This document shows, one piece after another, positions 13,056-21,512 of a DNA stretch of 64,000 bases; the stretch's first letter is position 1, and every line of letters starts with the position of its first letter. The position numbers and the translations under genes were made by a program. Below the pieces are notes generated by a model. It did no database searches. It was given only the letters and a program-made list of their open reading frames with translations, and was not told the DNA's origin. The stretch comes from Pelagibacteraceae bacterium (GTDB lineage Bacteria; Pseudomonadota; Alphaproteobacteria; Pelagibacterales; Pelagibacteraceae), in contig JALEGD010000001.1 in assembly GCA_022763425.1 (NCBI GenBank), positions 696,572 to 760,571 on the forward strand, given 5' to 3'.

Positions 13056-13915
13056 TTAGTTTTTACAAATTCTGTCCTATTTTAGTTAATGAGGATTTAA
13101 GAGTTAAATTTAAAAAAAATTTAATTGATTGTTCTTTAAAAGGAACCATAATTCTCTCACCCGAAGGAATTAATGGAACAATTTCTGGTTTATCAGGTTT
13201 TTTTTCAAGTTTTGAAAGTTTCGTCAAAACAACTTTAAAAATTGATAAATTTGATATTACAAATTCTTCATCATCAAATTTTATTCCTTTCAATAAACCC
13301 AAGGTTAAAATTAAAAAAGAAGTTGTCCCAATAGAAATAAAAACAAAAGTAAGAGATGGAAAACACTTAACACCTAGGGAATGGGATGAATTTATTATCA
13401 AAGATGATGTAATGCTTGTTGATGTACGCAAGCCATTCGAATATGAGCTTGGCACTTTTAAAGGTGCAATTAATCCTCAGGTAAATAGTTTTAGAGAATT
13501 TAAAGAATATTTTTCAAAAGATTTTGTTAAAAAAAATAATAAAAAGCTTGCAATATTTTGCACAGGAGGAATTAGATGTGAAAAGGCTGCTGACCATTTG
13601 AAAACAATTGGAATGGAGAATGTATATCAGCTTGAAGGTGGTATTTTAAATTATTTAGATAATACAGATGAAGAAAAATCAAACTGGAACGGAGAGTGTT
13701 ATGTTTTTGATCAACGTGTATCTGTTAAACATGGATCAAAACCTGGAACATACTCTATGTGTCATGGATGTAGACTTCCAATTAGCCTAAATGATAAAAA
13801 GTCAAAAAAATATATTGAGGGTATCACTTGTCCAAAATGCCATGATAAATTAACAGTTGATCAGAAAAAAAGATTTGCAATGAGACAATTTAATATTAAA
13901 CATAATAACAAATGA
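13031..13915 (+). CDS. trhO: tRNA uridine(34) hydroxylase, rhodanese family
   Basis: A 294-residue YceA/TrhO protein, which hydroxylates tRNA U34 using oxygen on the way to 5-(carboxy)methoxyuridine. It has the N-terminal UPF0176 domain (SPEGINGTISG near residue 40), then a rhodanese domain with the active-site loop FCTGGIRCEKA (about residues 176-186). The C-terminal Cys-rich section has MCHGC and TCPKCH pairs. The ATG lies inside the previous gene, and its stop overlaps the peroxiredoxin start (ATGA). Length and motifs are standard for the family. Confidence 0.9.
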   Translation: MQKEKFDIVSFYKFCPILVNEDLRVKFKKNLIDCSLKGTIILSPEGINGTISGLSGFFSSFESFVKTTLKIDKFDITNSSSSNFIPFNKPKVKIKKEVVPIEIKTKVRDGKHLTPREWDEFIIKDDVMLVDVRKPFEYELGTFKGAINPQVNSFREFKEYFSKDFVKKNNKKLAIFCTGGIRCEKAADHLKTIGMENVYQLEGGILNYLDNTDEEKSNWNGECYVFDQRVSVKHGSKPGTYSMCHGCRLPISLNDKKSKKYIEGITCPKCHDKLTVDQKKRFAMRQFNIKHNNK

Positions 13916-14391
13916 CACAAAAAATACCAAATTCAAGAATTGTAATCAGAGAAGATGGCAAGTTTATAGAAAAAGATATTTATGAATATTTTGTGGGAAA
14001 AAAAATTGTAGCTTTTGCTTTACCTGGCGCGTTTACTCCAACTTGTTCTAATTACCATGTTCCTGCTTATGAAGAAGAATATGATAATATAACAGCTTTA
14101 GGTGTTGATGAAATTTATTGCATAAGTATGAACGATCCTTTTGTTATTGAAAAATGGAAGGAAATTTCTGGAGCAAAAAAGATTAAATTTATTCCTGATG
14201 GAAATGGCGTTTTTACTAACGATATGAAAATGATTTCAGATCGAAGTGCTTCAGGTATGGGGCCGCGTTCCTTTAGGTACTCAATGTATGTTGAAGATGG
14301 GAATATAATAAAGTTATTTAAAGACGAAGATGGAAAATTTGATGTAAGCGATCCAAAAACAATGATAAATTTTCTTAAAGAAAATAAATAG
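13912..14391 (+). CDS. Peroxiredoxin (Prx5/AhpE-like, redoxin family)
   Basis: A 159-residue thiol peroxidase of the Prx5 type, which reduces H2O2 and organic hydroperoxides. The peroxidatic Cys is in the signature ALPGAFTPTCSNYHVP (about residues 37-52), and the GPRSFRYSMYVEDG strand matches the Prx5 fold. Only one obvious catalytic Cys is present, so it probably uses glutathione or a glutaredoxin-like reductant; that is inference. It overlaps trhO by four bases and the following gene by one. Confidence 0.9.
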   Translation: MTQKIPNSRIVIREDGKFIEKDIYEYFVGKKIVAFALPGAFTPTCSNYHVPAYEEEYDNITALGVDEIYCISMNDPFVIEKWKEISGAKKIKFIPDGNGVFTNDMKMISDRSASGMGPRSFRYSMYVEDGNIIKLFKDEDGKFDVSDPKTMINFLKENK

Positions 14392-14693
14392 TGGTAACAC
14401 GAAAATCTTTTACTAGACCAGTAACAAAAACATCTAACCCTCAACCAAAAAATAAAAAATCTAAAGATTGGATTATTTGGGCTGCATGGGCAGATAGGGT
14501 AACTTTTGAAGATATAAAAAGAGAAACAGGCAAAACAGAGTCTGAGGTGATTAAAATCATGAGATCTGCATTAAAACCATCATCCTTTAGGCTTTGGAGG
14601 AAAAGAGTTCATACTAAATCTATTAAAAACCTCAAAAAATTTAGAGAAGATAGAAAGAAACTAAGAGATAAATCTTACAAAAACTACCTGTAG
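14391..14693 (+). CDS. Small conserved protein of unknown function (TIGR03643-like)
   Basis: A 100-residue basic protein starting at a GTG that overlaps the previous stop by one base. The central block reads DWIIWAAWADRVTFEDI, then TGKTESEVIKIMRS and SSFRLWRKRVH. This is the pattern of the uncharacterised TIGR03643 family, which is widespread in marine proteobacteria. The middle looks like a helix-turn-helix, so nucleic-acid binding is possible but not shown. It is the last gene of the gatC-to-peroxiredoxin run; a hairpin followed by Ts lies across its stop codon. Confidence 0.75.
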   Translation: MVTRKSFTRPVTKTSNPQPKNKKSKDWIIWAAWADRVTFEDIKRETGKTESEVIKIMRSALKPSSFRLWRKRVHTKSIKNLKKFREDRKKLRDKSYKNYL

Positions 14694-14733: not shown

Positions 14734-14750
14734 TTAAGAATAATTCTTAA
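14734..14750. promoter_or_regulatory. Palindromic iron-box-like operator 1
   Basis: A 17-base perfect palindrome with one central base, TTAAGAATAATTCTTAA. It shares the GAAT-n-ATTC core with the second palindrome 28 bases downstream (centre to centre). Such elements are typical of Fur/Irr-type iron regulators. Its position upstream of the -35 hexamer of an iron permease gene supports an iron-responsive role. Confidence 0.55.
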
Positions 14751-14755
14751 CAGTG

Positions 14756-14784
14756 TTGACATTGAGAATCATTCTCATTATTAC
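14756..14784 (+). promoter_or_regulatory. Predicted sigma-70 promoter of the iron permease gene
   Basis: A consensus TTGACA at 14756-14761 is followed, after a 17-base spacer, by TATTAC at 14779-14784 (four of six bases match TATAAT). The spacer is almost entirely occupied by the Fur-like palindrome at 14763-14777. A regulator bound there would block RNA polymerase directly. The start codon is 36 bases beyond the -10 hexamer. Confidence 0.6.
14763..14777. promoter_or_regulatory. Fur-box-like operator 2 inside the promoter spacer
   Basis: TGAGAATCATTCTCA is a perfect 15-base palindrome around one central base and closely matches the classical Fur box core (GAGAATCATTCTC type). It sits exactly between the -35 and -10 hexamers of the FTR1 gene, the usual position for iron-dependent repression. 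Which regulator binds it (Fur, Irr or another family member) cannot be told from the site alone. Confidence 0.7.
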
Positions 14785-14820: not shown

Positions 14821-15468
14821 ATGACTGAATTTACCACACCTTTTATGAGTTCATTCTTCATAATCCTAAGAGAGGGATTTGAAGCTATGTTAATTGCAAT
14901 GCTAGTGTTTATGTTCTTAGATAAAATGAATGCTAGACACCAAAGACCAGCTGTCTTTTGGGGAATGGGTGCAGGAGTTTTGGTATCTTTATTATTGGCA
15001 GTAGGCTTTAGAAAAATTCACGGCATGACAGGCGCTCATGAAGAAATTTTTGAAGGTTGTGTTATGTTGATTGCCTCAGGAATGTTAGCTTATTGCGCAC
15101 TATTTTGTCATAATGCAAAAGAACATGTTGAGGGCAAAGTAGATAAAGCAATAGATTCAGGAAAAACTTGGTTATTGTCTTTTACGGTATTCTTAGCAAT
15201 TGTTAGAGAAGGTTTTGAAGTAGTATTATTCTATGCAGCTTTATTTGCAACGGGAGTTCAAAGTGTTAACGCAGTTGTGTTTGGTGCTGTGATTGGATTG
15301 GCTGCGCTAGTTGCGTCTTACTATGGTTTAAGTCGTTTAACAAAAATCATTCCAATCGGGATGTTCTTTAGAGCTTCAGCAGTATTTTTACTAATTATGT
15401 CTGTATACTTTGGTTATGAAGGTGTGCACGAATTAGTTGAAGGTCTTGAAGATCTTAAAGTTTTATAA
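14821..15468 (+). CDS. FTR1/EfeU-type high-affinity iron permease
   Basis: A 215-residue membrane protein with about six to seven hydrophobic segments. It carries two REGFE motifs, RIILREGFE-like at residues 17-21 and IVREGFEVVLF at residues 129-133. These paired REGxE motifs are the iron-translocating signature of the FTR1/EfeU family, which imports ferric/ferrous iron through the inner membrane. The EfeO and EfeB partners of the E. coli system are absent, and katG follows instead. The paired iron boxes and the Fur-like site in the promoter support iron-regulated expression. It is somewhat shorter than E. coli EfeU (about 276). Confidence 0.88.
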   Translation: MTEFTTPFMSSFFIILREGFEAMLIAMLVFMFLDKMNARHQRPAVFWGMGAGVLVSLLLAVGFRKIHGMTGAHEEIFEGCVMLIASGMLAYCALFCHNAKEHVEGKVDKAIDSGKTWLLSFTVFLAIVREGFEVVLFYAALFATGVQSVNAVVFGAVIGLAALVASYYGLSRLTKIIPIGMFFRASAVFLLIMSVYFGYEGVHELVEGLEDLKVL

Positions 15469-15537: not shown

Positions 15538-17730
<2,193 letters not shown>

Positions 17731-17743
17731 AAAAAATTAAACT

Positions 17744-17780
17744 TAACCCCGTGTTTTAAGTAATGCGGGGTTATTTTTTT
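17744..17780 (+). terminator. Intrinsic terminator after katG, shared with the end of hemA
   Basis: TAACCCCG (17744-17751) pairs with CGGGGTTA (17766-17773) around a 14-base loop, and seven Ts follow at 17774-17780. It is one of very few G/C-rich hairpins in the window. The right arm contains the TAA stop codon of hemA read on the other strand, and a run of As lies upstream of the left arm, so the same hairpin could also end the convergent hemA transcript. Confidence 0.8.
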
Positions 17781-19042
17781 GCTTGAAGATTTGTTGAAAC
17801 AAGCTGTTCATGTTTAGGCATGAACTTTATCCAAGCTTGCGTTATTGCATTAACAAACTTTTTAATGTCTTCTTTGGAGTGACTTGGAGTAGGAGTAATT
17901 CTTATTCTTTCAGTTCCTTTTGGCACTGTTGGAAAATTAATTGGTTGCACATAAACTTGATGTTCCTCTAATAAATAATCACTTATTTTTCTACAAAGTT
18001 TACTTTCACCAATAATTACTGGGATGATATGAGATCCAGAGTCTAAAAATGGTATTCCAGCTTTTTCGAGTTCAGATTTAACCAATTTCACGTTTTCAAA
18101 AAATTTTGATCTAATTTCAGGATTATCTTGAACAGTTTCAACGCTTTTTAATGTCCCCGCTGCAACTGCTGGACACATGGATGTAGTAAAAATAAATCCT
18201 TTAGAAAAACTTCTTACAAAATCAATAATAGAGTTTGATGAAGCAATATAACCACCGGCTAGACCAAAAGCTTTTGCTAAAGTTCCATTAATAATATCTA
18301 TTTGATCTGCTACACCTTCTTGTTCTGCAATACCTGCTGCATTCTCACCGTATAGTCCAACCGCATGTACCTCATCTAAATAAATTAAAGCTCCATGCTC
18401 ATGAGCAACTTCAACAATTTCTTTTAATGGGGCAAAGTCTGCTTCCATTGAATACACAGACTCCAATACGATCATTTTGGGCCTGTTAAAAGGAATCCCT
18501 TTTAGAACAGCCTTTAAATGTTCTACATCATTATGTTTATAAATTACCTTTTCTCTTTTACTTGCTCTAATACCTTCAATTAACGAGGCGTGGTTTAATT
18601 CATCGCTTAGTACCAAACAGTTATCAATTGCTGATAATATGGAGGTTAGAGCAGAGTCATTTGCACTATAACCAGAGTTAAAAGCAAGGGCTCTTTCTTT
18701 GCCGTGTAATTTTGCAATTTTTTCTTCTAATTCTACATGAAATCGAGTTGTGCCAGATATATTTCTTGTACCACCTGATCCAGCACCTAATTGATCTACT
18801 GCATTTTTCATTGCAGACATCACTTCGGTGTTTTGACTCATGCTTAAATAATCATTTGAACACCAAACATCAATTTCTTTAGTTTTTCCATCTTTATGGT
18901 GTAGGGCTTTAGGATATTGGCCTGCTTTTCTCTCAATCTCATTGAAGTATCTATAATGACCTTCGTTTTTTATTTCCTGTAATTTTTGATCAAATATTGA
19001 ATTGTATGATGATTTCCAATTATGAGCTTTGTTGCCTGACAT
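17771..19042 (-). CDS. hemA: 5-aminolevulinate synthase
   Basis: A 423-residue PLP enzyme that condenses glycine and succinyl-CoA to 5-aminolevulinate, the C4 route to tetrapyrroles found in Alphaproteobacteria. Blocks visible are WCSNDYLSMSQN (about residues 61-72), GSGGTRNISGT (about 92-102), AFNSGYSAND, YLDEVHAVGLYG (Asp of the PLP site), and GTLAKAFGLAGGYI with the Schiff-base Lys (about residue 255). The long basic start is normal. It is divergent from hemC across 86 bases and convergent with katG over a shared terminator. Confidence 0.95.
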   Translation of the reverse strand: MSGNKAHNWKSSYNSIFDQKLQEIKNEGHYRYFNEIERKAGQYPKALHHKDGKTKEIDVWCSNDYLSMSQNTEVMSAMKNAVDQLGAGSGGTRNISGTTRFHVELEEKIAKLHGKERALAFNSGYSANDSALTSILSAIDNCLVLSDELNHASLIEGIRASKREKVIYKHNDVEHLKAVLKGIPFNRPKMIVLESVYSMEADFAPLKEIVEVAHEHGALIYLDEVHAVGLYGENAAGIAEQEGVADQIDIINGTLAKAFGLAGGYIASSNSIIDFVRSFSKGFIFTTSMCPAVAAGTLKSVETVQDNPEIRSKFFENVKLVKSELEKAGIPFLDSGSHIIPVIIGESKLCRKISDYLLEEHQVYVQPINFPTVPKGTERIRITPTPSHSKEDIKKFVNAITQAWIKFMPKHEQLVSTNLQAKK

Positions 19043-19049
19043 AAATAGG

Positions 19050-19055
19050 TTTATA
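19050..19055 (-). promoter_or_regulatory. Predicted -10 box of hemA
   Basis: Read on the minus strand, TATAAA lies seven bases before the hemA ATG. With the usual distance from -10 box to start site, transcription would begin at or next to the A of the ATG, giving a leaderless message. No good -35 hexamer is visible, so the call is tentative. Confidence 0.4.
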
Positions 19056-19116
19056 GCTATTAGATTATCTATTAAAATATCTAAATAGACGCACTTATCA
19101 TATCATTTAAGAACAG

Positions 19117-19122
19117 TATAAT
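19117..19122 (+). promoter_or_regulatory. Predicted -10 box of hemC
   Basis: A perfect TATAAT ends six bases before the hemC ATG. A weak CTTATC lies 17 bases upstream as a possible -35. Transcription would start about at the start codon, so the hemCBEHFJ message may be leaderless. It mirrors the arrangement on the hemA side of the same 86-base gap. Confidence 0.5.
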
Positions 19123-19128
19123 TAAACA

Positions 19129-20607
19129 ATGTCTTTATCTTTAATAATAGGATCCAGAGCTAGTTTTTTAGCCAAAATACAAACTTTTATCGTAAAACAA
19201 GAATTAAAGAAAAAAATTAAAAGTATTAAAATTACAACCAAATATCATTCAACTAAAGGTGACAAGAATCAAGGACACGCACCGTGGAAAAATTTAGGAT
19301 ATGGAATTTTTACAACATCATTAACCAAGGGGCTTATAAATAAACATTTTAATTGTGTCGTTCATTCCTACAAGGATTTACCAATTTTAAAGTCAAAGAC
19401 AGATTATATCACAATCACAAGAGATGACCCCAGAGATCTTCTTTTAATTAAAAAAAAATCCATAAATAAAAAAAACTTAATTATTGGAACGTCATCACCA
19501 AGAAGAAAATCATCTGTTAGAGATCTAAAAGATTTAATAGGAGTTAAAAATATCAAAACAAAAACTATACGAGGAAATGTAACTACTCGATTATTAAAAG
19601 TAACATTAAAAAATCAATATGATGCAGTGTTTATGGCAAAAGCTGCAATTGATAGAATTTTTAAATATGGGAACAAAGTAGATAAAGTAGAAACAAAAAA
19701 ATTTATAAATCTTTTTAAAAAATTTAAACCATTTATTCTGCCTTTATCAATTTTCCCTACAGCTGCTAGCCAAGGGGCAATAGCAATTGAATATTTAAAA
19801 AATGATAAAAAAACAAAATCTATTTTAAATAAAATTAACTGCAAAAAAACACAGTCTATTTGCAATCAAGAAAGAAGTCTTTTGAAAAAATATGGTGGAG
19901 GCTGTGGTCTTGATATTGGTATTACCATAGAGGAAATAAAAAATAATAATTTCTTATTTAGCAAAGGAGTTGACGCCAGGAATAATAAAGAATTTCATAT
20001 CAATAAAATTTTAAATAAAAAAAGTATAAAGAAAACAAAATCTATATTTCCTCAAAATATCAAAGATTATCAAATGTTTTCAAGAATTGAGTTAAAACTT
20101 CCTAAAATAAAAAACTCAACAATCATTTTAACAAGACCAGATTTTTCAATTAAAGATTTAAATAATAAAAATTTTTTTATTACGAGTGGAATACAAACTT
20201 GGAAAAGAGTTACTAAAGAAAATAAAATCGCACAGTGTAGCTTTGATGGTTTGGGAGAAGATTATCGCCTCCCGGAAATTTATTATCGAAATTATAAAAA
20301 TATTAAAAAAATTACCTATAAAAAGAGCATGTCAATTTATAAGACTAAGCAAATTAATGGTTACGAGCTTATTCCTCAAATCAATTCTAAAACCATAAAT
20401 AATCTATTTAATGCAAAAGTATTTTATTGGATGAGCTATTCAGCATTTAAATTAGCGAAAGCTATTAGACCAGATATTACAAAATATCAGCATTGCAGTG
20501 GTCCTGGCTCAACATTTGAGCAATTAAAAAAAGAAATTCCTAAAAAAAGATTAAAACTATTTTTTAATTATAAAGATTTTAAAGAGAGTGTATATCAAGC
20601 CAGATGA
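19129..20607 (+). CDS. hemC: Hydroxymethylbilane synthase HemC with a C-terminal HemD-like extension
   Basis: A 492-residue protein; HemC alone is about 310. Residues 1-310 are porphobilinogen deaminase: catalytic Asp region TRDDPRD (97-103), SSPRRKS (122-128), IRGNVTTRL (147-155), TAASQGAIAIEY (211-222), and Cys259 in YGGGCGLDIG, which anchors the dipyrromethane cofactor. Residues 330-492 form a second domain that begins with TIILTRP, like the N-terminus of uroporphyrinogen-III synthase, and later shows YWMSYSAFKLA and SGPGSTFEQLKKE, like the HemD second half. No separate hemD is in this otherwise complete cluster, so a divergent HemC-HemD fusion is likely but unproven. It overlaps hemB by four bases. 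Confidence 0.85.
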   Translation: MSLSLIIGSRASFLAKIQTFIVKQELKKKIKSIKITTKYHSTKGDKNQGHAPWKNLGYGIFTTSLTKGLINKHFNCVVHSYKDLPILKSKTDYITITRDDPRDLLLIKKKSINKKNLIIGTSSPRRKSSVRDLKDLIGVKNIKTKTIRGNVTTRLLKVTLKNQYDAVFMAKAAIDRIFKYGNKVDKVETKKFINLFKKFKPFILPLSIFPTAASQGAIAIEYLKNDKKTKSILNKINCKKTQSICNQERSLLKKYGGGCGLDIGITIEEIKNNNFLFSKGVDARNNKEFHINKILNKKSIKKTKSIFPQNIKDYQMFSRIELKLPKIKNSTIILTRPDFSIKDLNNKNFFITSGIQTWKRVTKENKIAQCSFDGLGEDYRLPEIYYRNYKNIKKITYKKSMSIYKTKQINGYELIPQINSKTINNLFNAKVFYWMSYSAFKLAKAIRPDITKYQHCSGPGSTFEQLKKEIPKKRLKLFFNYKDFKESVYQAR

Positions 20608-21512
20608 AAAATTTTATTAATTCTAATAAGCTTAAAGCAAGCAATTTAATACAACCTATATTTATTGAAGAGGGTTTGAAATCGAAAAAAGTTATCAAAG
20701 GTTTGGGGGTCAATTGCAGCCATACAATTCAGAGCGCAAAAAAAACTATTTCATCTGACATTAAAAAAGGTGTTAAAAATTTTATTTTTTTTATTGTTCC
20801 AAAGACTAAGCAAAAAAAACCAGAAGATTTTAATTTTCATTACCAATCATTATCTCAAATAAAAAAAACATTTGGTAAACGAATAGTTATGATTGTTGAT
20901 ACATGTTTGTGTTCAGTTACAACTGATGGACATTGTGGCATTACTCATAAAAATAAAATAAACTTAAAAGAAACTCATAAATCTCTTGGAATTGCAGCTG
21001 ATACTTTTGTTCAAGCAGGAGCTGACATCATAGCCCCTAGTGATATGATGAAGGGTACAACAAGATATTTAAGATCATTATTCAAAAAGAAAAAATTTAA
21101 AACTCCAATTATGAGTTATTCATCAAAATTTTTTAGTAGTTTTTATGGTCCTTTTAGAAATGCTGCAAAATCTTCTCCAAAAAAATTTGATCGATCTTCT
21201 TATCAATTACCAATTCACGATCGCAAAAAAGCAATACAGAGTTCTTTAACGAATGCAAAGCAAGGAGCCTCTTTCTTAATGGTAAAACCCGGTATTACAT
21301 CTATTGATTTGATCAGAGAAATTAAAAATAAAACCAAATTACCTACAGGGGCGTATCAAGTAAGTGGTGAATATGCTTCTTTACAATATTTAGCAAAAAA
21401 CAAACTTGGTGATTTTAGTAAACTGTATAAAGAGAGTTTATTAGCTATTCATAGAGCTGGTGCTGATTTTATTATAACTTATGGAGCTAGAGACATTGCC
21501 AAAGATCTATAA
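20604..21512 (+). CDS. hemB: Delta-aminolevulinic acid dehydratase (porphobilinogen synthase)
   Basis: A 302-residue enzyme joining two 5-aminolevulinate molecules. The two active-site lysines are Lys175 in SYSSKFFSSFYGPFR and Lys228 in FLMVKPG. The metal loop reads DTCLCSVTTDGHC with Cys101, Cys103 and Cys111, which is the zinc-binding version; many Alphaproteobacteria carry the Asp-containing magnesium version. The usual DMMDGR is DMMKGT here (147-152). The protein is shorter at the N-terminus than the usual 325-335, so the octamer-forming arm is reduced. It starts inside the hemC stop and overlaps hemE by up to 32 bases. Confidence 0.93.
   Translation: MKNFINSNKLKASNLIQPIFIEEGLKSKKVIKGLGVNCSHTIQSAKKTISSDIKKGVKNFIFFIVPKTKQKKPEDFNFHYQSLSQIKKTFGKRIVMIVDTCLCSVTTDGHCGITHKNKINLKETHKSLGIAADTFVQAGADIIAPSDMMKGTTRYLRSLFKKKKFKTPIMSYSSKFFSSFYGPFRNAAKSSPKKFDRSSYQLPIHDRKKAIQSSLTNAKQGASFLMVKPGITSIDLIREIKNKTKLPTGAYQVSGEYASLQYLAKNKLGDFSKLYKESLLAIHRAGADFIITYGARDIAKDL

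Follow-up and report, generated by a model that had tools for sequence, protein, structure and literature searches.

What controls the FTR1-type iron permease gene of this pelagibacterial genome, and why does its promoter carry two palindromes? The window, meaning the whole 64,000-nucleotide stretch analyzed here, spans positions 696,572 to 760,571 of a genome that consists of one 1.21-Mb contig rated 100% complete. Both palindromes can be read directly from it, as the preliminary description of this DNA had reported. They share a core, their centers lie 28 bp apart, and 12 bp separate them. The upstream and weaker one, box 1 (14734 to 14750, center 14742), is a perfect 8-1-8 palindrome, TTAAGAATAATTCTTAA, and box 2 (14763 to 14777, center 14770) is a perfect 7-1-7 palindrome, TGAGAATCATTCTCA; neither is assigned a strand. 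On the forward strand a -35 hexamer TTGACA (14756 to 14761) and a -10 hexamer TATTAC (14779 to 14784), also read from the sequence, enclose a 17-bp spacer. Box 2 takes up nearly the whole of it, which bears out its earlier placement between the two hexamers, and the FTR1 start codon lies at 14821. This TTGACA-17-TATTAC promoter was not listed by our promoter scan because the scan rule requires the sixth base of the -10 element to be T, and here it is C. TTGAC also stands ahead of the second box in the FTR1 promoters of genera g5, g7, and g12 and of strain HIMB114 (SAR11 genera are denoted by g and a number; the window belongs to g1).

We conclude with high confidence, from sequence comparison, that the two palindromes make up a single operator of tandem 7-1-7 Fur boxes in the main iron-uptake slot of this lineage, through which Fur would repress FTR1. 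A metal-loaded Fur dimer on box 2, in the -35/-10 spacer, would keep RNA polymerase off the promoter, and a second dimer on box 1 would add occupancy; when iron falls, Fur would release the promoter and FTR1 would be made, possibly together with katG by read-through. The slot itself holds sfuCBA in most SAR11 relatives and FTR1 in the lineage of the window. A Fur-type 7-1-7 inverted repeat does overlap the promoter, placed as if to block RNA polymerase, and the repression by an iron-type regulator that had been predicted from the layout is supported to that extent.

The gene itself (14821 to 15468, forward strand) encodes a predicted 215-aa permease of the FTR1/EfeU family, with 91 bits to PF03239 (cut-off, 25.3) and both REGFE motifs, which are invariant in 18 aligned relatives; it falls below the cut-offs of the NCBIfam models TIGR00145 and EfeU. 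It resembles the permease of EfeUOB in its family and its two REGFE motifs but differs in having no adjacent EfeO or EfeB. On its left, all on the forward strand, lie a peroxiredoxin-type gene (13912 to 14391, PF08534) and a DUF2805 gene (14391 to 14693, PF10985), and on its right lies the catalase-peroxidase gene katG (15553 to 17730, over cut-off for TIGR00198 and NF011635), separated from FTR1 by 84 bp in which a scan found no terminator-like site. Adjoining katG, positions 17771 to 21512 hold genes that by eye appear to be for heme synthesis (one ALA synthase-like and two more), although for the ALA synthase-like gene Pfam gave just an aminotransferase family. SAR11 FTR1s form one clade in our tree (100/100). 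The copy in HIMB114, a close relative that we take to belong to SAR11 subgroup IIIa, is 97% identical to that of the window, and the nearest FTR1s outside SAR11 are at most 36% identical, with one exception at 65%. This exceptional SAR11-like FTR1 lies on a contig labeled Bdellovibrionales (L111), which also carries two Fur boxes 27 bp apart and has been either misbinned or transferred.

A search for the motifs elsewhere in the genome, suggested in the preliminary description, gave a divided result: the bare core GAATNATTC occurs three times in the 64-kb window against 2.8 expected, which is the chance level, whereas the full 15-mer TGAGAATNATTCTCA has a single exact match in the 1.21-Mb genome, box 2 itself. 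The looser pattern TGANAATNATTNTCA likewise has one match. We also scored sites with a matrix trained on 21 distinct boxes from sfuC promoters, excluding g6 and g1, the genus of the window. We had selected these boxes with a Fur-type consensus of our own (matches at 13 or 14 of 14 positions), and that of L199 (g8) has the same sequence as box 2; the matrix is therefore independent only at the level of genus. TGAGAATCATTCTCA is the matrix consensus, and the top two sites in the 64-kb window are box 2 (22.9 bits) and box 1 (10.1 bits), the latter with a small lead over the third site (9.4 bits). That a matrix trained on sfuC picks both palindromes argues for the Fur operator. In the 150 bp upstream of FTR1, neither the best score nor the sum of the best two was reached in any shuffle (0/2000 each, in a test that assumes promoters without shared ancestry), and a chance origin of the pair was rejected on these shuffles even though the bare core is at chance level. 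Further support for box 1 comes from sfuC in g1, which is preceded by a TAAGAATNATTCTTA box in two genomes (L195, L197) and by a variant of it in a third (L198), and from a similar box in the HIMB114 FTR1 promoter. Five sites of the TGAGAATNATTCTCA type with two mismatches occur elsewhere in the genome, namely, box 1, three inside reading frames, and one that is intergenic; three-mismatch sites number at least 144 on each strand, versus 90 for the reversed pattern. The intergenic site, TGAGAATAATTATTA (L003, 1501 to 1515), lies some 93 bp upstream of a cytochrome-c-like gene.

The regulators of this complete genome, an inventory of which had also been proposed, include Fur, whereas Irr and Rrf2 (RirA) were not found. 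Two proteins exceeded the cut-off in a PF01475 profile search of the genome: Fur, with 144 aa (L021, 1486 to 1920, minus strand), and a Zur-like protein of 121 aa. A third, weak match is an Lrp-type protein. Fur scores 130.4 bits to PF01475; among NCBIfam models it fits PRK09462, a Fur model, best, though under that model's cut-off (95.8 of 146), and its PDB relatives are 5fd5/5fd6 and 4ray, the closest entries being named ferric uptake regulation protein. The same PF01475 search found no Irr, and PF02082 found no Rrf2 protein (RirA, IscR) in the genome at an E value of 0.1, so that we class the promoter neither with Irr (ICE) promoters nor with the RirA iron-rhodo box; Irr on box 1 and RirA or IscR were both rejected on these searches.

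The alternative that fares best keeps the same protein and changes its metal: as a manganese-sensing Mur, it would make FTR1 answer to manganese and not to iron. Its best PDB relatives, 5fd5/5fd6, presumably come from a rhizobium whose Fur serves as a manganese regulator; sequence leaves the metal undecided, and because Fur- and Mur-type proteins are indistinguishable here, the metal could be manganese. The classic Mur site, however, differs from the boxes before FTR1 and sfuC. Those boxes precede iron importers, and the accessible text of PMC2864753 describes Pelagibacter ubique sfuC as strongly induced by iron limitation (16-fold in mRNA, 27-fold in protein), which makes manganese control improbable.

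The preliminary description had suggested that two different proteins might act, one site being more A/T-rich and possibly suited to Irr; on this reading Irr would occupy box 1 and Fur box 2. Box 1 may resemble an Irr-type inverted repeat. Irr-range proteins also occur in other SAR11 genera, where score range alone served to sort the PF01475 matches into Fur, Irr, or Zur; of four proteins compared with NCBIfam (L021, L022, L076, L097), the best matches were Fur, Zur, Fur, and IrrA, respectively, each below cut-off. Yet Irr-range matches are absent from the window's own genome, from all eight g1 genomes examined, and from all six examined in g12, while Fur-range matches are present in 7/8 (the exception being G022, 84% complete) and 6/6, respectively. 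HIMB114, a complete genome of the window's genus, keeps both boxes with only a Fur-range and a Zur-range match. In g5, where three of four FTR1-carrying genomes do have an Irr-range match, the upstream site in those three is TGATAATNATTATCA, a textbook Fur box. Since a complete genome with only Fur and the Zur-like protein over cut-off yielded no Irr or Rrf2, the two-regulator idea fails, and we give it almost no credence.

We return to the Fur operator and its distribution. FTR1 is present in 21 of 397 family genomes; with one locus set aside (L026, 47 bp upstream only), 20 promoters were compared, 12 from six genera (g1, g3, g4, g5, g7, g12) and 8 from g6. Random occurrence of the palindromes, or their lack of conservation before FTR1 in relatives, had been named at the outset as what could overturn the proposal; the Fur reading withstood this test in those six genera, where all 12 promoters have at least one Fur box and 11 have a non-overlapping pair; in the remaining one (L033, g3) a second box was not found. 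Box spacing is 28 bp at eight loci (g1, g5, g12), 22 bp at two (g7), and 16 bp at one (g4). The best-site score was reached by none of 2000 shuffles in 11 promoters and by two in the other (L034). In g6 (Fonsibacter), by contrast, boxes occur in 0/8 FTR1 promoters, with shuffle-like matrix scores (116 to 755 of 2000), and a box is likewise missing from L202, the one sfuC promoter of g6 that was examined. The 13 g6 genomes contain no Fur-range match, and 6 contain a Zur-range match; G005, a one-contig g6 genome at 99% completeness, has the Zur-range match only. Boxes are thus kept where Fur is present and lost where Fur is lost, and both halves of this pattern, together with the Fur of the window's own genome, argue for the Fur operator. 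Two genomes (G046, 66% complete; G386, 59%) carry FTR1 with boxes yet gave no FUR-family match, probably owing to incompleteness. Binding by the Zur-like protein, the sole other FUR-family protein over cut-off in the genome, is scarcely credible, given that a Zur-range protein persists in six of the 13 g6 genomes and boxes in none of the eight g6 FTR1 promoters, and that the genes downstream of boxes are iron importers. In Fonsibacter-type g6 (L037 to L044, L221, and other loci), an MbfA-type iron exporter gene lies just downstream of FTR1 (that of L037 is over cut-off for NF045676), so that importer and exporter adjoin without Fur or Fur boxes, the usual switch.

The same kind of operator usually precedes the SfuABC/FbpABC-type ferric ABC transporter, whose binding protein is encoded by sfuC. 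Among 38 sfuC loci (the 8 best of the search plus 30 chosen genomes, including one piece at a contig end), a box is present in 37 and a non-overlapping pair in 30. Control of sfuC by Fur would fit the published iron-limitation response (PMC2864753, accessible text), and the two observations together favor the Fur operator at FTR1.

FTR1 and sfuC were not found together. Across the 397 family genomes, sfuC was found in 297, in none of the 21 with FTR1 (list checked by eye), and 79 genomes have neither. The probability of no overlap under random draws is about 5e-14, or 4e-7 for near-complete genomes only (7 with FTR1 and 120 with sfuC, of 140), both values being too small because of shared ancestry. 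A close sfuB permease was found in 9/9 sfuC controls (E, 1e-176 or lower) and in 0/21 FTR1 genomes. Distant permeases from the sfuB search (22 to 24% identity) occur in 4 of the 21, including HIMB114; in the window's own genome this search gave no permease at an E value of 1e-5, nor was there any match to SBP_bac_6 or SBP_bac_8, to both of which sfuC belongs by its own matches. The idea of a second ferric ABC system in FTR1 genomes was considered and rejected: in the one case read, the HIMB114 permease (at about 1.229 Mb) and its binding protein are best matched by 2-aminoethylphosphonate models, below cut-off. Such a distant permease may lie behind published listings of Fe3+ ABC systems throughout IIIa.

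The two importers also share an address. In seven genera FTR1 and sfuCBA adjoin the same neighbor genes, on both sides in six (21 regions compared), and in each of these genera the slot of FTR1 is also that of the transporter type of P. ubique (PMC2864753, accessible text). In g1 the order is peroxiredoxin-DUF2805-slot-katG for both importers, and this occupation of one site by sfuCBA or FTR1 within the window's own genus again favors the Fur operator. To the right of sfuCBA in g1, three genomes have katG, which in G047 is a fragment of 73 aa. The peroxiredoxin-DUF2805 order recurs in g8, where DUF2805 likewise lies to the left of sfuC. In g12 (G012 versus G040) the same left genes and katG enclose the slot; in g3 and g7 it lies between LysR-bactofilin and a sodium:solute symporter; and in g5 (G184 versus G052) and g6 (G005 versus G084) the genes on either side are the same, with the iron exporter gene mbfA on the right in g6. 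In g4 (G335 versus G003) the left side is common, and on the right several further genes lie in between. Departures from these patterns are two g12 genomes with other left neighbors (G023, G032) and G004, taken as HIMB058, which matches on the left side only.

Across the genera there are five different slot neighborhoods, all of them found with both cargoes, so that parsimony would call for at least five exchanges of FTR1 and sfuCBA, a count that rests on the distinct neighborhoods because the FTR1 tree leaves the order of genera unresolved. From frequency, we infer that the direction was from sfuCBA to FTR1. We hold as evenly balanced the full proposal that single-gene FTR1 repeatedly replaced three-gene SfuCBA in place, in five neighborhoods and seven genera, within a Fur-controlled slot of exchangeable cargo, leaving FTR1 as the only dedicated iron importer that our searches recognized in the genome.

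Alignment of the two alleles hints at where they may have been joined, with a clear breakpoint at box 1 only in g3. There they are alike through box 1 inclusive and diverge just after it: over the next 10 bases, identity is 0.80 among sfuC alleles and 0.50 between alleles. A similar pattern appears in g7, from one within pair and two between pairs; in g4 the pattern is indistinct, the corresponding values being 0.77 and 0.77 over 10 bases and 0.81 versus 0.61 over 30. In the g1 alignment the alleles have in common the box nearest DUF2805, and only the FTR1 allele has the spacer box. The g5 alleles resemble each other at both boxes, and in g6 the similarity stops some 80 bp short of the start codon. 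It is possible that the operator itself served as the recombination joint, with the left-flank box kept and the promoter-spacer box arriving with the new gene.

Fur boxes before SAR11 FTR1 are already known. In its accessible text, PMC4771312 (Hogle 2016) describes 15-bp 7-1-7 inverted repeats before SAR11 Fe3+ ABC genes and FTR1 permeases; it places FTR1 in HIMB058 and HIMB114, attributes the lack of an Fe3+ ABC system in HIMB058 to possible incompleteness, counts HIMB114 among the genomes that have one, and makes no mention of a tandem layout in the promoter spacer or of a shared slot. Elsewhere, as far as the accessible texts go, PMC10030771 (Lanclos 2023) states that listed genomes "also" contain efeU, PMC12636525 (a 2025 habitat study) reports afuAB in all Pelagibacteraceae and ftr1 in one genus alone, and PMC13271415 and PMC6018831 contain nothing on FTR1. 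We found no published description of one slot with FTR1 and sfuCBA as exclusive cargoes in the accessible passages of the literature searched. The operator is ordinary, and the proposed repeated in-place exchange, which may be new, is the interesting part.

Few marine bacteria are as abundant as SAR11, for which sfuC was put forward as an iron-stress marker (PMC2864753, accessible text); lineages with FTR1 in the sfuC slot would escape it, and they probably rely on a different chemistry for iron import. Should the exchange prove real and repeated, it would offer a clear example of one whole transporter being replaced by another while the regulatory address is kept, as well as paired strains within one genus for comparing the merits of each importer.

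Several further observations concern the slot and its boxes. The sfuC match of genome G026 ends at 1,181,971, the start of the sfuC-adjoining intergenic region in a table of PMC2704228, as far as that source was accessible, and G026 is probably HTCC1062. In its sfuC promoter (L180), some 60 bp ahead of the gene, lies the Fur-type box TGATAATCATTCGCA, a member of our training set; this contrasts with PMC3090418 (2011), in whose accessible text no classic Fur boxes are reported in HTCC1062. In g1 a conserved leader of about 100 bp, with no Rfam match, lies between the boxes and sfuC (L211, L212, L213) and is lacking from the FTR1 allele. To the right of the g3/g7 slot, a stretch that by eye resembles a thiamine riboswitch had no Rfam match at the gathering threshold in two g3 regions. 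The g5 slot borders a tRNA gene on its right (L206, 12208 to 12281; L207, 7868 to 7941), and in a one-contig g4 genome the sfuB match (G003:C1:475533-477143) was reported to contain one internal TAA. Single boxes of the Fur type also occur in other SAR11 genera, both before apparent hemB genes (L047, L055, L058, L062) and in the gap that separates an Rrf2-like regulator from a hydrolase-like gene (L045, L071), all of these genes being named by eye.
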